Shown: in pieces, positions 7,566 through 21,275 of the stretch
Layout of the letters: every line of letters begins with the position of its first letter
How positions within the stretch are numbered: position 1 is the stretch's first letter
Assembly: GCA_000697455.1 (NCBI GenBank)
Contig: JNET01026939.1
Span: 1 to 21,702 of the forward strand
Direction of reading: 5' to 3'
Source of the DNA: Basidiobolus heterosporus B8920
Lineage: Eukaryota; Basidiobolomycota; Basidiobolomycetes; Basidiobolales; Basidiobolaceae
DNA: 21,702 nucleotides
Notes under the pieces: generated by a model
The model's database searches: none
The model's input: only the letters and a program-made list of their open reading frames with translations
What the model was told of the DNA's origin: nothing
Program-made: the position numbers and the translations under genes

Positions 7566-8946
7566 TTAAAATTGGGGTGAGACCGAGAGCGAATTGCCAG
7601 AGGATTTGATGAAAGCGTCATGTCTCTCAATCAAATTAGGCACGATCTTGCTCTCGATCTCTACACCCCGTGCCAACTCCTCGTTGGTTAGAGAGACAGC
7701 TTCCGAGGTGGTATTGGTAATGAACCAGACGATTTGTTTACGCGTGGCCAAGAGGTTCCCGATCACAACCTTGTGACCGTAACGGTTGAGCGCTTGCCGT
7801 GCCTTCTTGGTTAAGATCGATGGTTCGGTCTCGAGCTAGGGTGGGGATGGACAGATAGATCAGCAAATGCCCAGCAGTAGTAAAGTCAAGTTAAGCCAAT
7901 CTTACCTTAAATGAAATGATGAAGCTCTGCGATGCCCATTTAGTGACTAACGGCTTGAGGACTTTAGGAACTTGTTCCATAGTGAGGGTCAGACCCCCAC
8001 CATTTGACTGAATCTTGTGCTCAACCTAGCCATCAAACAAGTGTTAAAGACCTACCGCCAAGCTACCATTTAGCTCAACTTACCATCTTTTCGGCAGGGA
8101 TGAAAAAATCACTGACTGCTGCAGCTAGGTAAAACAATGCCTTCTCTCCCATGGATCCTACGATGAATGCGGCACTACGAAGATGGAACAGATAATCTGT
8201 TACTGTCACAAAGCTGATCATCAGAAGGGTTTCTTCTTGTTTTGCCTAGATAGGATTTAATGACAGCTGAATATTGACGAAAACCTTCTTGTCTGCTGAT
8301 GTTCCCGGTACCTTTTGATACTTGACCAATACCTCCTGCATGGTCTGACTATACTGCGAATCCACTAAGAAAAATGGTGAGCCACTGCTAGATAAACCAT
8401 GAAAATAACTTTGAGAAACGTCAAAGCTTACCGGTAAGTTGTCCGTCAGGCCCCAATCCCATATAGTCCAAAAAGCAATTTTTGGAGTGAGTATAGTGTC
8501 TACTATAGGGTTGTAGACTAAATTGACGGTGAAGGAATATGACTGCGTAGCCCAACTCTAGAAAATATGTGCCGATAGTGGTTAAAGAGGGTATAGATGG
8601 ACTAGATGTGCCGGTTAACTGGTGAGTAATCAGGGTAAAAAGGATATTCAGCAGAAGTGGCGCCTCGAGTACCTGCGCTAAAGTTATCGATGAAGCGCAC
8701 AGTTTGGTTCTCCAAAGGCACAGTAGTTCCACCGCTCTAATAAAAGAAGTTCAGGAAGAAAATCAAGCAGAGAGAAGCGCATCAAGGCGAACACATTACT
8801 GTAATAACGGCGATTCTACGACCAGCTGCTCGGTGTTTCGCCACGAACATTTCCATACGTTTTTCATTGTCAGTAAGTTCCTGGGGTGCTGCATGGGTTC
8901 GGAAATATTCCTCAGGTTCAATCAAGGGAGTTTGTGGTCTTGACAT
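7566..8946 (-). CDS. CAB2: Phosphopantothenate-cysteine ligase (phosphopantothenoylcysteine synthetase)
   Basis: Seven exons, 8946-8800, 8736-8648, 8568-8432, 8364-8312, 8245-8084, 8025-7906 and 7835-7566, total 978 nt and give 325 residues. The enzyme joins phosphopantothenate and cysteine, the second step of coenzyme A synthesis; the eukaryotic form uses ATP. Family landmarks appear in order: [20 protein letters not shown] from residue 50, '[20 protein letters not shown]', '[17 protein letters not shown]', '[20 protein letters not shown]', '[19 protein letters not shown]' and '[11 protein letters not shown]'. Length is typical of the fungal/animal enzyme, which is separate from the decarboxylase. 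Five introns are GT-AG (58-70 nt). The intron at 8569-8647 has AT-AC ends. For intron 4 the donor at 8311 is preferred over one at 8284, because the latter gives a 39-nt intron and adds nine residues that the family lacks. The product should be cytosolic. Confidence 0.93.
8569..8647 (-). other. Probable U12-type AT-AC intron in the PPCS gene
   Basis: Read on the minus strand, the 79-nt intron starts ATATCCTTTTTACC and ends CGGCAC. The first nine bases equal the U12-class 5' splice-site consensus ATATCCTTT. A branch-like CTCTTTAAC matches the consensus TTCCTTAAC at seven of nine positions and lies 12 nt from the 3' end, inside the narrow spacing known for U12 introns. Removal joins GA to ATATTTTCTAGAG and gives '[16 protein letters not shown]' with no gap, as in the enzyme family. 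A four-base ATAT repeat at both boundaries makes the exact cut ambiguous by sequence, but all shifts give the same mRNA and only this one gives a known terminal dinucleotide pair. Confidence 0.82.
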
Positions 8947-10765: not shown

Positions 10766-11131
10766 GTTGCAATAGGGTTGTAAGTTAGGCCAAGTGAATG
10801 ATTTTCTGACGAAGGGGGTAGGAGGTTTAGTCAAAAACAGAGATGATTCCTGATTGGATGAATGAAACAAGCTCCAGTCTATTGTTTATTTACAGCGGCT
10901 TACAGGATTGATTGCATGATCCATAAGCTATACTGAGCCCAACCCTAAGCTACAACCCTAAGCTATATTGAGCGATACCTTAGTGTCTTAAGCTATACAC
11001 ATTTCATCTGAAAAAAATCACATCAAAACAAGCTATTTGTAATATCAACAAAACATTGGCTAACAACATTCCTACAGAAAGCCTTCTGACCATTGTTCAT
11101 TATACGACTCAACAACCTCAAGCCTAGCATC
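10766..11131. promoter_or_regulatory. Divergent promoter region between FEN1 and Zwilch
   Basis: This 366-bp gap separates two divergent start codons. It contains a forkhead-like TTGTTTATTTAC at about 10881-10892, inverted CCAAT motifs (ATTGG) near 10854 and 11056, and short dispersed copies of the word aagcta(ta) between about 10920 and 11000. No TATA box is evident. Joint cell-cycle control of the two genes is only an inference. Confidence 0.45.
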
Positions 11132-13319
11132 ATGCCAGATATCGATATTGCCACAGAGTCAACCCTCGACTTCTATAAACTATTGGAAGAACTGTCTGAG
11201 AATTCCGAACCTATCGAGAATTTAGTGTCTGCTGTGCTAGAAGATGCATTTATTTGGTTTATTCCTAGACATGTCTACCATCCTTTGAAAGATCAGTTCG
11301 GCCCCCGCCCATTCTTCTTGATCACCGCGGCAGGGGAAGAGTGTCAACCTTTCTCAATAGCCACAGAGAACATTAATCGAATTGCTGTAGGTCCTTTGCC
11401 TACGGGTAAAAAGGCCTTTTTGGGAGGGGCAGAGAATTACTTATCTTCTGGTAGATATGCCCAACGTTGTATCTGGCCACAAGATAAAATGGCACCTATC
11501 TCTAAGGATGCTGCTAGATTTTACTTATCAAAGTATGCGTTAGCCCATGGTCAGGTAAACAATAAGCCTCTTCCCGCGGTATTTGTTTATTCTTTCCAGA
11601 CGGTTGACTCTCAAGAGAGAATGTATTCTGGAATCGAAGCGACTGTCAAAGAGGACCAAACGAACTTCCTTTTGTATCAGCTCAAGGATGAAGGAACCGT
11701 GGCAAAATCCAAAGAAGATGCCAAATCACCTATACCTACTTTGGAGGAGATTGTTGAAGATTTCCAGGATTTAGTAGGCACCCCAGGCCACGAACCAAGC
11801 GAAGGCAGAGCCTACGCTAGATATGAGATTTTGGGGGAGCCCATGTCTAAAGAAATCCCGAATGAAACCAGTTCTGTTGTAATGGAGGTAGCTTGGGAAG
11901 GAATGGCCAATATGTTAGCTGCTCCACCAACATCTGCTTTGGTCACTTTACTTATTAAGTCGGTAGACGGCAACTTGGATTACGAAAATCACATTGCCAC
12001 CCAACCTTTGTTGCGCGAGCTCAACCAACTTATTGAATGGTATGACTGCTGCACTCAGGGCACATCTTGGGAATCAAGAGTTCGACGACAAGGAATAGCC
12101 GCTGAAATAGATGACTTTTTGGATGACATCAAAAACGAGGGTGGCATAGCCATGAGCGAAGAGACCATCGCTGTAGAGGCAGGAATGTTCAATTCACTCC
12201 CCGTCAGAAAGGATCTGGACTTTACTGAGAAGCTCTGGAAGTACTGTCAAGAAGCTCTCAACACTGACGAGATCATAGACTGCTTGACAGCTACTATCGA
12301 TGAGCTTGAAACCGGAAAGCTTCAACCCTTGGTACACAAGGGAAATCACTCTAGTTTGGCTAACTTGATAAGAGATTGTTTGAAATTATCAAAGCTTCAA
12401 ATTACCGCAGACTATCAAGAACAAAAAGAAACAATTAGCCGCTCGTTTGATTACTGGCTTGAACAGCCATTGGAGTGTTTGGTGGAGGTTGGCGTCTCCA
12501 AACTAAAGCGTGATTACTGTCATCATTTGATAGGTATGTAGCGGTGAGAGGTGGATGTTTCTTATTCATGTCTAACCACTTTTATAGGGAATGACCTTGC
12601 CACTTGGGATACTTTGGTAAGACTATGGTTCGCTCTATGCGTTTAGTGTTAATATGCTTACCCTGACTTCTCGTAGGAACCCTTCTTAGAGCCAACTATC
12701 CCTCTCGAAGACCAACTGCACAGACTGCGGTATCTCCATCGAATCCTCGAGCTTTGGTCACTTGTTAAAACCAACGTACTGGCGGTTCCGTACGAGAGCT
12801 TAAGACTTCTTGTCCAGGATACCATCACCCATTACACCCAATTCTTAAGCGACCCCGAGGCTTTCGAGTTCGAGCAACCTTTGTACGCAACCATCAATCT
12901 TCCACGTTTCTCTAACGAGACAGATAAGCTACTTACCAGTCTAGTGCGAAGGTAAGTATTCACTTGTGAGGATTTCTACAGTTTAGTTATTAATCCCAAG
13001 CGAATTCCCAGCTTTGATCCATGCTATTGGGAGCTCAGTCTTGTCGAGGAGAGTGGTCTGCTATCCTCTTTCTCGGACCAAGAAGCACAAAACAGTTCCG
13101 GTACCATGCGCATGATGGTAGCGTTCAACCGAAAAGACGAACTATTTGGTCACCAGTCAAAGCGCGGTAAGTATTTAAAAGCCTTCCTGATGAAAGATCA
13201 TACACTGAATTTCTCTGAATGTAGATGAACCCGAAGAAGAACTAATGGAGGTTGATGTCACAGCCCTGACCTCGTTCCATAACCGATACTATCTAGTGAA
13301 GTCAACGGCCACATGCTAA
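11132..13319 (+). CDS. ZWILCH: Zwilch, RZZ kinetochore complex subunit
   Basis: Five exons, 11132-12533, 12588-12616, 12677-12951, 13012-13166 and 13225-13319, total 1956 nt and give 651 residues. The introns are 54-60 nt and GT-AG. The start is the first ATG of the open frame. Similarity to animal Zwilch is clear in the C-terminal half: 'VRKDLDFTEKLW' near residue 355, 'LETGKLQPLVHKGNHSSLAN' near 390-410, and 'LVEVGVSKLKRDYCHHLIGN' near 450-470, followed by the conserved 'LATWDTLEPFL' and 'LHRLRYLHRILELW'. Animal Zwilch binds Rod and ZW10 to form the RZZ complex, which recruits Spindly, dynein and checkpoint proteins to unattached kinetochores. The N-terminal half matches only loosely, and the protein is about 60 residues longer than the human one. 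RZZ subunits are absent from the common model yeasts, which makes this gene easy to miss in annotation. Confidence 0.85.
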
Positions 13320-14764: not shown

Positions 14765-17072
14765 TTATAATTCTACCATGATCCCCAACTCCATAGTTTT
14801 GGCTGGAAGCGTGTTAAGTTTGGGTCCTCTCTTATTACTCTGCAAAAAGGCATAAGCATGATGTAACAGCCACCTTCGAACTTTTGAAGAGTCGTGTTTA
14901 GCGTAGTACGTGTGTCGACTAAGAATAAAGAAAACATCGTGGCTAATAGCACGCAACAATCTTTCCTGTTCTTGATTCTGTGGTTTCCTTTCACCAGAGG
15001 ACTCGACGAACATTTGGTAAGACCCTGGATTAAGCGATGTCAAACGTACAAGTTCAGATATCACTTCATCAGAGAATTGATGTCCAGGATCCACGGTCTC
15101 CATATATCCATATCTAGCAACACATCGATAGAAGCCTCTCAATGATAATCGAGTAAGGATATACCGTTCTCTGGGCAAAACGTATGGAATAGAAACATGA
15201 CGTATAGTCACGAACACTAAAACCTGTGGTGCCACCGAAAACGATGTGACAAAACGGGTGAGTGTGGCGGGCACTCCGACATCAGCTTCGCTATAGAATA
15301 ACGCGAGGCCAGGTGTCCGTTGAACCGGTTGGTGGTTACTCGATAGACACAATGTATTTGTAGAATCTTCGTGAAGCAAATCACATAACGCTAAATTATG
15401 TTGAAAAGCGTACAGAATTTTCAAACTAGTGCCCCAATACCAAAGATTCATCACGCCTGAGATGATTCCAGCCATAGCCAAAGGTAACCATCCGCCAGTT
15501 GTAAGTTTGAGCAGAGCTGCACTTAAAAACGCCCCATCTAACATGCCGAATCCCAAGAGGAAAGGTAGGTATACGATAGGACGTACTTTCCAAACGTAGA
15601 CCATGACCAAGATAACTAACAAGGTGGTTATAAACATGTCTACACTAACCGCTACTCCATAAGCATCTGTGAGGTTTGTCGAGCGTTGAAAGATGATCAC
15701 GATGGAAATGGTTAGTACCATCAAGAGAGAATTTATCTCTGGAATGAAGATCTGTCCATGAATGATCTGAGAGGTGTGTTTGATGGTGACCCTGGGAAAG
15801 CAGTCCAAGGAAACTGCCTGATTGATAATGGAAAATGTGGCTGAAATCATTGCCTGCGAAGCTACCACCGTCGATAATGTTGCCATAACAAAGACACCCC
15901 AATACAATGGTTGGGGTATAGTCATCCAAAAAGCATTCTTAATCAATGTTGGGTTTACTAGTAAGCGAGCCCCTTGCCCACAGTAACAGAGAAGTAGAGA
16001 AGGGAAAACCATAAAGGTTGCTGAGAGTCTGATGGAGGTGGCATCAAAGTGACCAAGATCCGCAAACAATGCTTCGACTCCTAATAAGATTGTCAATGAT
16101 TTGTAGTACTTATTATTCACTGAAGCTATAGTTAAATCAGTGTCCATACCAGTCATGGCCAGAATGACTCCTCCTAAACATCGCCACCCACGTATCCCAT
16201 TACTCATTAAGAAGCTGAATGCATGTGTGGGAAGCAACGCCTCTAGGATGGCCGAATGGAAGCTAATATTATGGATTCCAATCATAGCTAGCACTATTAG
16301 CCATAGTGTGATGATGGGTGCGAAGAGAGCAGCGATACGATCAGTACCACATCGCTGTACCATAAACAGGCAAACCAAAACAGTGCACGTGAGTGGAACA
16401 GTGAGCGGTTCAACCGACGGAAGCTGCACCTGGATTCCTTCAACCGCTGAAAGCACTATAGCGAATGGTAAACAAATTAATCTGGAAGGCAATTTCCTGG
16501 AATTCAACCTACCTGAGACGGCCGGAGTCAAAATTCCGTCACCAATTACCAAAGATGCTCCAAAAATTACCAGAACCCTTAAAGATACTTGTAAGCCAGG
16601 TTTCGTCTGAAATAAGGATTTCTGATTCAACACGATCGAATCATCCGTATCATCATGGTTCAGCTCCAGGTTAGAAGACTTGGCATCCACTTGTGTGGAT
16701 ATACCAAGGTGCCTGAATATCAATGGTTTAAGTACCGATGTCAAACAAGAATTCTGTCAGCACACACCTGCACAGCAAGGAATATAGTGCGAATGTACCC
16801 CCCTCACCATGATCATCAGCACGCAACACCACAAATACGTATTTCACAAGCATCACCATGACCAGTGACCATACGATAAGAGACACAGTCCCATAGATAT
16901 CTTGTTCAGATGGCGGAGTTGTGAATATCCCTGAGAAGACGTAGAGCGGACTGGTACTAATATCACCTGTAGATTCAAGTAATCAGTCATATTTCTTGGT
17001 ATTGAAGGGGTCATTTTCATTACCGTAAATGATACCGGTACTTTTATAGGCCAGATGAATTATTCCCAACAT
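14765..17072 (-). CDS. HAK1: HAK/KUP-type potassium transporter
   Basis: Five exons, 17072-17024, 16966-16768, 16712-16513, 16455-16150 and 16080-14765, give 689 residues. The four introns are 55-69 nt and GT-AG; the last two lie inside what looks like one long open frame and must be removed to restore the family sequence (TPAVSVLSAVEG and [15 protein letters not shown]). Landmarks: '[19 protein letters not shown]' at the N-terminus, '[20 protein letters not shown]', '[12 protein letters not shown]', 'FADLGHF', '[20 protein letters not shown]', 'VYVWKVRP', '[11 protein letters not shown]'-like '[19 protein letters not shown]', and '[12 protein letters not shown]'. Twelve membrane segments are expected, followed by a cytosolic C-terminal domain. 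The family takes up K+ at the plasma membrane, often by H+ symport and induced at low K+. The last G of GDIGTSPLY is S here (GDISTSPLY), a change in the selectivity-related first segment. The ATG at 17072 has an in-frame stop just upstream; an earlier N-terminal exon cannot be excluded. Confidence 0.92.
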
Positions 17073-17895: not shown

Positions 17896-18792
17896 TTAGA
17901 AATAGTCGGTGTTGGGTGGCTCGATTAAGTAGAAGAAATCAAATGAGATGGCACCAAATACTGCACCCACTATGGGAGCTACAATAGGTACCCAGAAGTA
18001 ACCATTGTATGCAGTGAATGTCTCGGTTCCCCACCCAGCAATTAGTGTGAATAGCCGTGGACCAAAATCACGAGCAGGATTCAGGGAATACCCGTTTAGC
18101 CCACCAATAGTAACACCAATACAGACTAGCATAAGCCCAATCACTATGGGAATGATCGCAGAGTGAGAAGAATTACGATGGTCGTTTGCCGAAAGCACAA
18201 TAATCGTCATGATAGCAGTTAGGATGAATTCGATGAAGAAAGCATTGCCGTGATTAAGAAAAGGCTCTGGATAAGCAGCGTAGAATGCTGCCGAGGCATT
18301 CTCTCCAATGACTTGACGTACGCCTCCATCAAGGAGGTTGATAGGTTGATAGTACAGACCATAGACTATACCAGCCGCACAGAATGCCCCTAAAACTTGG
18401 GAGAATATATAACCAGGGACTTTGGACCATGGAAATCCTCGGGAAACTGCAAGAGCAACCGTGATTGCTGGGTTCAAGTGTGAACCGGAAATACCAACAT
18501 TGCAGTAGATGCCCATAGTCAGGGCTAAACCCCATCCCCAATTGATGCTGAAGAAATTCTCTTTGCTTGGACTAAGCATGGCCGTATGCACGGAGCCTAG
18601 TCCAAACACTAGCATGATAAATGTACTGAAGAATTCGGCAGTGTATTCCCGATATCTGTACCGAAGTCCCTTGGCAAAGTTTTTGATACAAACTTGTACG
18701 GGGGTCAACTTCAATTCAGGCTCTTCCGTATCGATACGATAGTTCTGGGTGGTAGTGACAGTTTGAACGCTAACGGCATTTTCAGCACCCAT
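17896..18792 (-). CDS. Aquaglyceroporin (MIP family), intronless
   Basis: A single uninterrupted frame encodes 298 residues. Both pore loops are present: 'SGSHLNPAITVAL' with NPA at 107-109 and 'NGYSLNPARDFGPRLF' with NPA at 238-240. Asp242 after NPAR is the glycerol-facilitator signature, so glycerol and other small solutes are likely substrates besides water. Six membrane segments and two half-helices fit the family; the N- and C-termini are short, unlike Fps1, whose long regulatory tails are missing. The second segment 'HRNSSHSA' is a short charged loop. A TATA element (TATAAAT on the minus strand at 18853-18847) lies 55 nt before the ATG. Unlike every other full-length gene in the window it has no intron. 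Its downstream neighbour is the HAK/KUP transporter on the same strand. Confidence 0.95.
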   Translation of the reverse strand: MGAENAVSVQTVTTTQNYRIDTEEPELKLTPVQVCIKNFAKGLRYRYREYTAEFFSTFIMLVFGLGSVHTAMLSPSKENFFSINWGWGLALTMGIYCNVGISGSHLNPAITVALAVSRGFPWSKVPGYIFSQVLGAFCAAGIVYGLYYQPINLLDGGVRQVIGENASAAFYAAYPEPFLNHGNAFFIEFILTAIMTIIVLSANDHRNSSHSAIIPIVIGLMLVCIGVTIGGLNGYSLNPARDFGPRLFTLIAGWGTETFTAYNGYFWVPIVAPIVGAVFGAISFDFFYLIEPPNTDYF

Positions 18793-18846
18793 GTGAGATG
18801 ATTGAGGAGAAGGTGAGGTCTGAATTTGGCCATTCGCATTTCGTGT

Positions 18847-18853
18847 ATTTATA
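18847..18853 (-). promoter_or_regulatory. TATA box of the aquaglyceroporin gene
   Basis: On the minus strand GGATATAAATAC stands 55-61 nt upstream of the ATG, the same spacing as the other TATA boxes in this window. Confidence 0.55.
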
Positions 18854-20142
18854 TCCAGTGGACGTGGTTTTCCCAGAACAGTAGACGACTGTCTGAAACT
18901 TCTTTTTCACAAGGTCTCTCTATGTCAGCTGAATCACTGACTCTTCACGTCGCATCCTTCAATCAATATCAAACGGTGAGAAACTAGTTTGTTTGCCATG
19001 ATTAATCGACGTGTTTCCCTCGACCAGCACGAAAGAAATCCAATTCCCCTTAAAACCACTGCCACGCCGGCTATTTGTAGGTCCGATCAACTCGCCTAAA
19101 GGGGGATTTACGGAAAATGCCCAGAGTATGAATGAAACAAGCACAGCTGCCATCCCTCACCATAAATGGGAATTTCTTCATCATTACTATCTGTGCGAAA
19201 AGTTGTTGGTTCTGATTTCAATAAAAATCTTGTTCTCAGTCTCGACTCTAGTTCCAATCGCTGAATTAATCGCTGAATTAATCGCTGAATTAATCGCTTA
19301 TCGAGATTCCAATACACATAGGAATAATTATTCAGACTAGATGGGAATTTAAGGTTCAGGGTACCAACTTTATTTATGCTTAAGTCGTATAGTTTAGATC
19401 TGTTAAGTGATTAAATCATAGCCTGGGTGATCTGTAACCTATTATCTTAGGATTTTACCAACATTAAAAGCTTTTAGATCCTACAATTAGCATTGGCAAA
19501 GTGATCCCCACCCCTTGTTGATGATTAAATAAAAGAACTGCACTACTTCAAGGTGTACTAGATATTATCAGGTCCTGTAGGTTACTAGATATGACTTGGA
19601 ATATTACAAAACATGTGGATCAACCAATAATCTTACCAAGTAGAATTAGCATTTGCACTTTTATCAGGAGGTTAACAAAGTAATGTACAACAATCTGGTG
19701 CTAAGTAATGTGAATTTTAACCTCTGGAACATACTGCCTGCTTTGCAACATCACCAGCTGGCATTCACTCAGGCTTGGAAGTACAAAGTTCAGTAATTAG
19801 CTGCTTTTTAATATCCTAAGTATTGCTCAATCCCAATAGTGAAAAGTGCAACAGGTGGGGGGGGGTCTTCTGCCATTGTTATGGTGTGAACAAGTAACAT
19901 TTGAGTATCTAAGGTAATTATATTCAGACAAGGTATATAGATATGCTGAGTAGATACCAATATTGCTGAACCTAAGTAAACTTAGCACTCAGGTACTGTG
20001 GTAACTATATACATAGCTTGCATCTTGTACTATGATATGCTTATCATGTTTGAAAACATTTCAGGTCACTTTGATTTAGGTACAGTTATATACAAATACC
20101 GGCATATGAGAAATCATAAATATGTGCAAATGAGCTAAAGCT
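18854..20142. other. Gene-poor region
   Basis: I see no credible gene here on either strand. The open frames near 18959-19340 have no domain features and include a simple repeat. From about 19340 the base composition (A+T-rich, many ggtac/gtact words, a run of nine G at about 19857-19865) resembles decayed retrotransposon or LTR sequence, but no element ends can be placed. Confidence 0.4.
19256..19299 (+). repeat. 12-bp tandem repeat
   Basis: The unit aatcgctgaatt is repeated at 19256, 19268 and 19280, with a partial copy aatcgct at 19292. It lies in sequence without a recognised gene. Confidence 0.9.
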
Positions 20143-20878: not shown

Positions 20879-21275
20879 TTAATATACAAATTTCTCTCTA
20901 ACTAATGGTTTAGTTAGAATGTCAACCATTTGTTCAGTTGGACAATAAGCCATGTCTACTAACTTATTCTCTATAACTTCTGTAATCAAGTAGTGCTGAA
21001 TATCTATGTGCTTACTTCTTGCATGAAATGTTGGATTTCTAGCTAATTGAATACAACTTTGATTATCCAGCCATATAATTACTGGTGAGTTCTGAATAAA
21101 GCCTGAGTCATTCAACAGCTTTATTAAGCACATGACCTCTTTGGTAGCTTCACAGGCAGCCATAATCTGCTTTGCTGGTCAAGAGTGAGACTGAAGGTTC
21201 CCTATGAGATATTGCAGCCAGAATACCAGCAGAAAATCGGCAGATTTTTTTCCAGATCCATGATCACCACTGATC
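20879..21275 (-). pseudogene. Copia RNase H domain, broken by frameshifts
   Basis: The main open piece (20879-21163) contains the RNase H core 'AACEATKE', 'IIWLDNQSCIQLARNP', 'RSKHIDIQHYLI' and 'DILTKPLVREKF'. Just upstream the expected preceding block 'ISHREPSVSLLTSKADY' is present but in another frame; the join at about 21163 lacks two bases. A further shift lies near 21220. At the 3' end a single missing base near 20882 creates a premature stop, and the normal end of the domain continues in a second frame toward the polypurine tract. Confidence 0.8.

Follow-up and report, generated by a model that had tools for sequence, protein, structure and literature searches.

The gene for phosphopantothenate--cysteine ligase (PPCS, CAB2) on a Basidiobolus contig appears to carry an ordinary U12-type AT-AC intron, 79 nt in length, which the U11/U12 and U4atac/U6atac spliceosome would most likely excise; we put the probability of this reading at about 0.94. 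The gene lies on the minus strand of the window, by which we mean the whole stretch of 21,702 nucleotides that was analyzed. The reading rests on our analysis of the gene model and its junction, of the donor and its accompanying termini, and of the genus of the source; it also draws on further U12-donor introns elsewhere in the source assembly and on the mark that the donor has left in the protein models of relatives.

The PPCS gene and its second intron

The PPCS gene runs from ATG to stop between positions 8946 and 7566 of the minus strand. Removal of six introns from this interval joins seven exons into an open frame of 325 residues; five of the introns have GT-AG ends and measure 58 to 70 nt, and one has AT-AC ends. 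The GT-AG introns, all on the minus strand, are intron 1 (8737-8799, 63 nt), intron 3 (8365-8431, 67 nt), intron 4 (8246-8311, 66 nt), intron 5 (8026-8083, 58 nt), and intron 6 (7836-7905, 70 nt). The product matches the Pfam family DFP (PF04127; E value, 3.2e-19), which identifies it as PPCS, and most of its length is spanned by matches to solved enzymes, namely, PDB 7edz (E value, 2e-79), 6ai8, which is named CAB2 (E value, 8.3e-75), and 1p9o. With the two best solved chains, 7edz and 1p9o, both of which we take to be human PPCS, the restored protein aligned without a gap over the exon 2/exon 3 junction. The restored protein is a eukaryotic PPCS with an intact conserved block.

In the gene model, the AT-AC intron is intron 2 (8569-8647, minus strand) and has phase 2. 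Exon 2 (8648-8736, minus strand) ends in ...GATSA(GA), and the first base of exon 3 (8432-8568, minus strand), an A, completes the split codon; the predicted spliced junction joins ...TCTGCTGA at the end of exon 2 to ATATTTTCTAG at the start of exon 3. The original prediction held that the most conserved block of the protein can be read only if an AT-AC intron is taken out here, and this proved correct: removal of 8647-8569 restored the block, and retention broke the frame. We enumerated the frame-keeping GT-AG, GC-AG, AT-AC, and AT-AG pairs in exons 2 and 3 that were at least 30 nt apart, and among these, the conserved block was recovered only by 8647-8569. The GT-AG pair 8672-8558 kept the frame but deleted 12 residues of the block and was rejected as the real junction, and none of the other enumerated junctions restored the block. 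With ATAT at each end of the 79-nt intron, the cut could be shifted by up to 4 nt; inspection of the sequence at the five equivalent cuts found recognized termini in the AT-AC register only. U12-type introns have AT-AC or GT-AG termini, and 8647-8569 has the former pair.

The U12 donor consensus is RTATCCTT, and the 5' splice site of the intron, ATATCCTTT at 8647-8639 of the minus strand, matches it exactly, as had been predicted. Over both strands of the assembly bases examined (462,900 strand positions), RTATCCTT was counted 35 times and RTATCCTTT 13 times. The branch consensus of the same class is TTCCTTRAC, and the branch of U12-type introns lies about 10 to 15 nt from the 3' end. The branch-like motif of the PPCS intron, CTCTTTAAC (8581-8589, minus strand), is followed by 12 nt to the intron end, and the earlier description of this distance as typical of the class stands. 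The motif itself scores 8.5 of 14.5 against the consensus, with two mismatches, and a motif scoring at least as high was in the right place at 338 of 25,824 AC sites (1.3%). Among the GT-AG introns of PPCS, which have no U12 donor, the branch score was higher in intron 1 and equal in intron 5, where the branch-like motif lies 17 nt from the intron end. Taken by itself, CTCTTTAAC is weak evidence, of little distinctiveness for the U12 class; the putative class assignment rests on the donor, the termini, the exact repair of the exons, and the trace in relatives described below.

Minor introns and splicing machinery in the source fungus

Among the best 120 of 4676 matches listed, the PPCS proteins closest to that of the window were those of Basidiobolus meristosporus (89% identity) and Basidiobolus ranarum (83% identity), and identity to any protein from outside Basidiobolus was at most 65%. 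The aquaporin encoded at 17899-18906 of the same contig was likewise closest to Basidiobolus among the matches listed, sharing 69% identity with the B. ranarum protein and 68% with that of B. meristosporus. Basidiobolus was nearest for both genes tested on the contig, and these best matches rule out an origin in Dikarya; the genus is classified in Basidiobolomycota, outside Dikarya. B. meristosporus has been reported to contain 249 minor introns (0.554%), a density unsurpassed among fungi to date (Larue and Roy 2023, PMC10639083); in the sections of that paper cited here, Rhizophagus irregularis is credited with 205 minor introns, Ascomycota and Basidiomycota show no convincing ones, and two or more minor snRNAs are part of the criterion for the presence of minor splicing. 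Bartschat and Samuelsson (2010, PMC2846911), in the part used here, describe minor introns as lost in Basidiomycota and Ascomycota and present in Rhizopus and Phycomyces.

Because Basidiobolus is reported to be rich in minor introns, a minor spliceosome is expected in the source fungus, and a minor intron in this genus is expected and unsurprising for the lineage. The surprise that the original prediction attached to a U12 intron presupposed membership in Dikarya and lapses with the assignment to Basidiobolus; nor is there any need to invoke its suggestion that the major machinery splices a U12-like intron. The PPCS locus provides no evidence for minor splicing in Dikarya. Cutaneotrichosporon oleaginosum is a basidiomycete. 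The minor snRNA genes reported for it, the only fungus for which the sections of PMC7072748 cited here mention such genes, are hard to square with the loss of minor splicing reported for Dikarya; the literature has not fully settled this point, which has no bearing on this window.

The PPCS intron had been described as one U12 intron in an otherwise GT-AG gene. We scanned 231,450 bases of the assembly, comprising the window, 20 stretches, and four loci with weak family matches (L002 and L023 to L025); locus L001, which overlaps L007, was left out of the count. The scan called for an RTATCCTT donor, matching termini, a branch-like motif 9 to 16 nt from the end, a length below 110, and a frame that stayed open over 60 bases on each side of the junction. 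Its branch threshold of 8.5 was chosen after a first look and is the PPCS intron's own score, so that this intron passes by construction. U12-type open-frame introns were found at 4 of the 35 RTATCCTT sites (PPCS, L025, L017, and L009); the fair count, which omits the PPCS intron, is 3 of 34 other donor sites. Passes averaged 0.28 in 100 dinucleotide shuffles, with a maximum of 3, and 59 permuted donors gave passes at 41 of 1582 sites (2.6%), from which about one chance pass would be expected among 35.

All four introns found by the scan start with RTATCCTTTT. The one at L025:937-1014 (plus strand) is a U12-type GT-AG intron of 78 nt with the donor GTATCCTTTT and a TCCCTTAAC branch; its removal completes a 214-aa Rab8/Sec4-like GTPase (PDB 5szi, Rab-8A; E value, 1.9e-83). 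Another GT-AG intron of 78 nt, at L009:884-961 (plus strand), combines the U12-type donor GTATCCTTTT with a weak branch and lies in the gene for the glycerol-3-phosphate dehydrogenase Gpd1, a stretch of which is completed when the intron is removed (PDB 1wpq; E value, 1.6e-31). The fourth, at L017:4045-4123 (minus strand), is a 79-nt AT-AC intron with the donor ATATCCTTTT and the branch ATCCTTAAC in a transmembrane-like stretch, and we regard it as a candidate that lacks homology support. With at least two further U12-donor introns in identifiable genes of the same partial assembly (Rab8/Sec4 and Gpd1), a lone U12-like intron is ruled out.

We also searched the assembly, which amounts to 8.1 Mb in 428 contigs, for components of the minor spliceosome. 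None of 16 contigs checked was shorter than 10,088 bases, and small contigs are, judging from these sizes, probably absent. With the Rfam families, U12 and U6atac gave no match in the assembly at E values up to 0.001, and U11 and U4atac gave nothing above the cut-off at E values up to 10. A U4atac match (E value, 2.6; 18.5 bits) was dismissed, since 11 of 14 prokaryote controls also matched at that threshold; no minor snRNA scored over the cut-off in any of the 14 control genomes, and the search thus had no positive control. Core patterns yielded nothing clearly beyond chance for U6atac (up to two mismatches; 2 matches versus 3 in the reversed control) or for U12 (up to three mismatches; 6 matches versus 4), and Rfam recognized no minor snRNA in the eight loci concerned. 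Matches in the assembly to the protein families zf-U11-48K (best, 16.9 bits versus a cut-off of 21.1) and PDCD7 (14.6 bits versus a cut-off of 27) were sub-threshold only. As a gauge of completeness we used the major snRNAs, of which U6 and U5 were found in the assembly and U2 and U4 were not. The assembly or the snRNA search is incomplete, and because U2 and U4 were missed too, the missing minor snRNAs say nothing about the machinery.

These results also bear on the very unlikely alternative that the fungus has lost its minor spliceosome and that the U2 (major) spliceosome handles the AT-AC intron. AT-AC introns spliced by the U2 spliceosome exist and share their terminal dinucleotides with the PPCS intron (PMC7072748, in the sections cited here), but the PPCS intron has a U12 consensus donor in full, not a U2-like one. 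Its branch region can also be read as the loose YTRAY motif; against this, the same TATCCTTT donor occurs in GT-AG introns of other genes of the assembly, and the closest relative is reported to be rich in minor introns. That no minor snRNA was found in the assembly would suit a loss, but the same search missed the U2 and U4 snRNAs.

Traces of the intron in the PPCS proteins of relatives

The original prediction expected standard gene predictors to break the gene at the AT-AC intron and proposed a comparison of the intron position in related fungi. We examined 136 PPCS proteins, the union of two lists of the best 120 matches each, for which the queries were the PPCS protein of the window and Rhizophagus diaphanus P0094; membership in Basidiobolus and Glomeromycotina was assigned from organism names. 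The expectation was borne out in relatives: their protein models carry a trace at the same site, and among the 136 proteins listed, 16 of the 19 models from these two lineages were irregular there, compared with 1 of 117 others. The Fisher value for irregularity by lineage is 6e-17; as the proteins are related, it should not be taken as a probability for independent samples. Within the first list by itself, all 10 proteins from the two lineages were irregular, and the single irregular outsider was absent from that list. That outsider is P0123 from Syncephalis pseudoplumigaleata, whose EYPCW... is unlike a translated U12 donor and whose irregularity may reflect an indel or another mis-splice; the conserved block is regular in the remaining 116 of the 117 outsiders listed. 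The three regular models within the lineages are all from Gigaspora margarita.

Nine of the 16 irregular models run into SAEYP[FL]..., which is the translation of GA|ATATCCTT(T), the U12 donor; these are the models of B. meristosporus, Glomus, Rhizophagus diaphanus, two Cetraspora, Dentiscutata, two Funneliformis, and Ambispora. On the acceptor side, a T immediately precedes YFLE in B. meristosporus, R. irregularis, and Geosiphon and fits the intron end AC|A TAT, and the R. irregularis model has LSLTK upstream, which could be encoded by TCCTTAAC. Two of the 16 irregular models, P0121 and P0132, start just downstream of the intron site. The B. ranarum model is without the conserved block and reads NFSA/GYAV, as a GT-AG cut would leave. 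Seen through the protein models alone, the position of the intron is conserved in relatives with minor splicing (16 of 19 models, nine of them with EYP[FL]).

This pattern would most simply be read as a single AT-AC minor intron with one position, which predictors have failed to recognize in many genomes, and the proteins suggest that the intron of Basidiobolus and of Glomeromycotina, the arbuscular mycorrhizal fungi, is probably shared by common descent. We think it likely that the PPCS intron dates back at least to a common ancestor of Basidiobolomycota and Glomeromycotina, has been kept at one phase-2 site, and is probably missing from censuses; its probable absence from the published ones would follow from the fact that 16 of the 19 listed models are mis-spliced or truncated there. 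If this is true, counts that start from annotations systematically underestimate the minor introns of early-diverging fungi, and annotated proteins of these fungi are wrong at conserved cores. An annotation error of this kind, met in 16 of the 19 proteins listed, would keep such introns out of annotation-based surveys. The PPCS intron, which sits in a core gene of CoA synthesis, would be a marker of minor splicing for two early-diverging lineages of fungi.

The models of relatives also weigh on the idea that the real splice is a GT-AG one (8672-8558 or another frame-keeping pair), that PPCS does without part of the block, and that the AT-AC ends are coincidental. Frame-keeping GT-AG pairs do exist in exons 2 and 3, and the B. 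ranarum model, a protein model alone, resembles the outcome of a similar cut; however, no enumerated GT-AG pair keeps a block that is regular in 116 of the 117 listed proteins from outside the two lineages, and lineage-specific broken models fit predictors forced around an AT-AC intron, so that we regard this idea as even less probable than splicing by the U2 spliceosome. A pseudogene or an assembly error with no intron at 8647-8569 has nothing specific in its favor and next to no probability, given that the five other introns and all exons are intact, that the product is 89% identical to that of B. meristosporus, and that irregular models at this site also come from several other genera.

Published minor introns and neighboring genes

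Minor introns in Basidiobolus were already known; what is new is the lineage-bound irregularity of PPCS models at the intron site. Our literature search found no paper on a U12-type intron in PPCS, and the terms "PPCS" and "phosphopantothen" are absent from the main text of PMC10639083. The B. meristosporus and R. irregularis introns of that survey come from both lineages that carry the PPCS trace, and the former from the same genus. For R. irregularis, the survey, in the sections cited here, counts annotated introns; with the annotated PPCS of both B. meristosporus and R. irregularis mis-spliced at the site, the PPCS intron is probably not in that count. The U12-type introns of Rhizopus and Phycomyces (PMC2846911) are likewise from outside Dikarya and include both AT-AC and GT-AG minor introns, but they are few and from other organisms, and the part of the paper used here names ribosomal protein S13, not PPCS.

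Elsewhere in the window, a 483-residue open frame at 11090-12541 (plus strand) matches Zwilch, a subunit of the RZZ kinetochore complex (PF09817; E value, 7.2e-27), and a KUP/HAK-type potassium transporter is encoded at 14765-16756 (minus strand; PF02705 on 14888-16756; E value, 4.4e-120). An open frame at 20879-21178 (minus strand), which had no Pfam match, presumably resembles the terminal RNase H region of Copia-type retroelements. The aquaporin gene lies at 17896-18906 (minus strand), and its closest matches are from Basidiobolus. For B. meristosporus, the entries of PPCS and of the closest aquaporin both give 75,607 bases as the longest contig, which suggests the same linkage as in the window.
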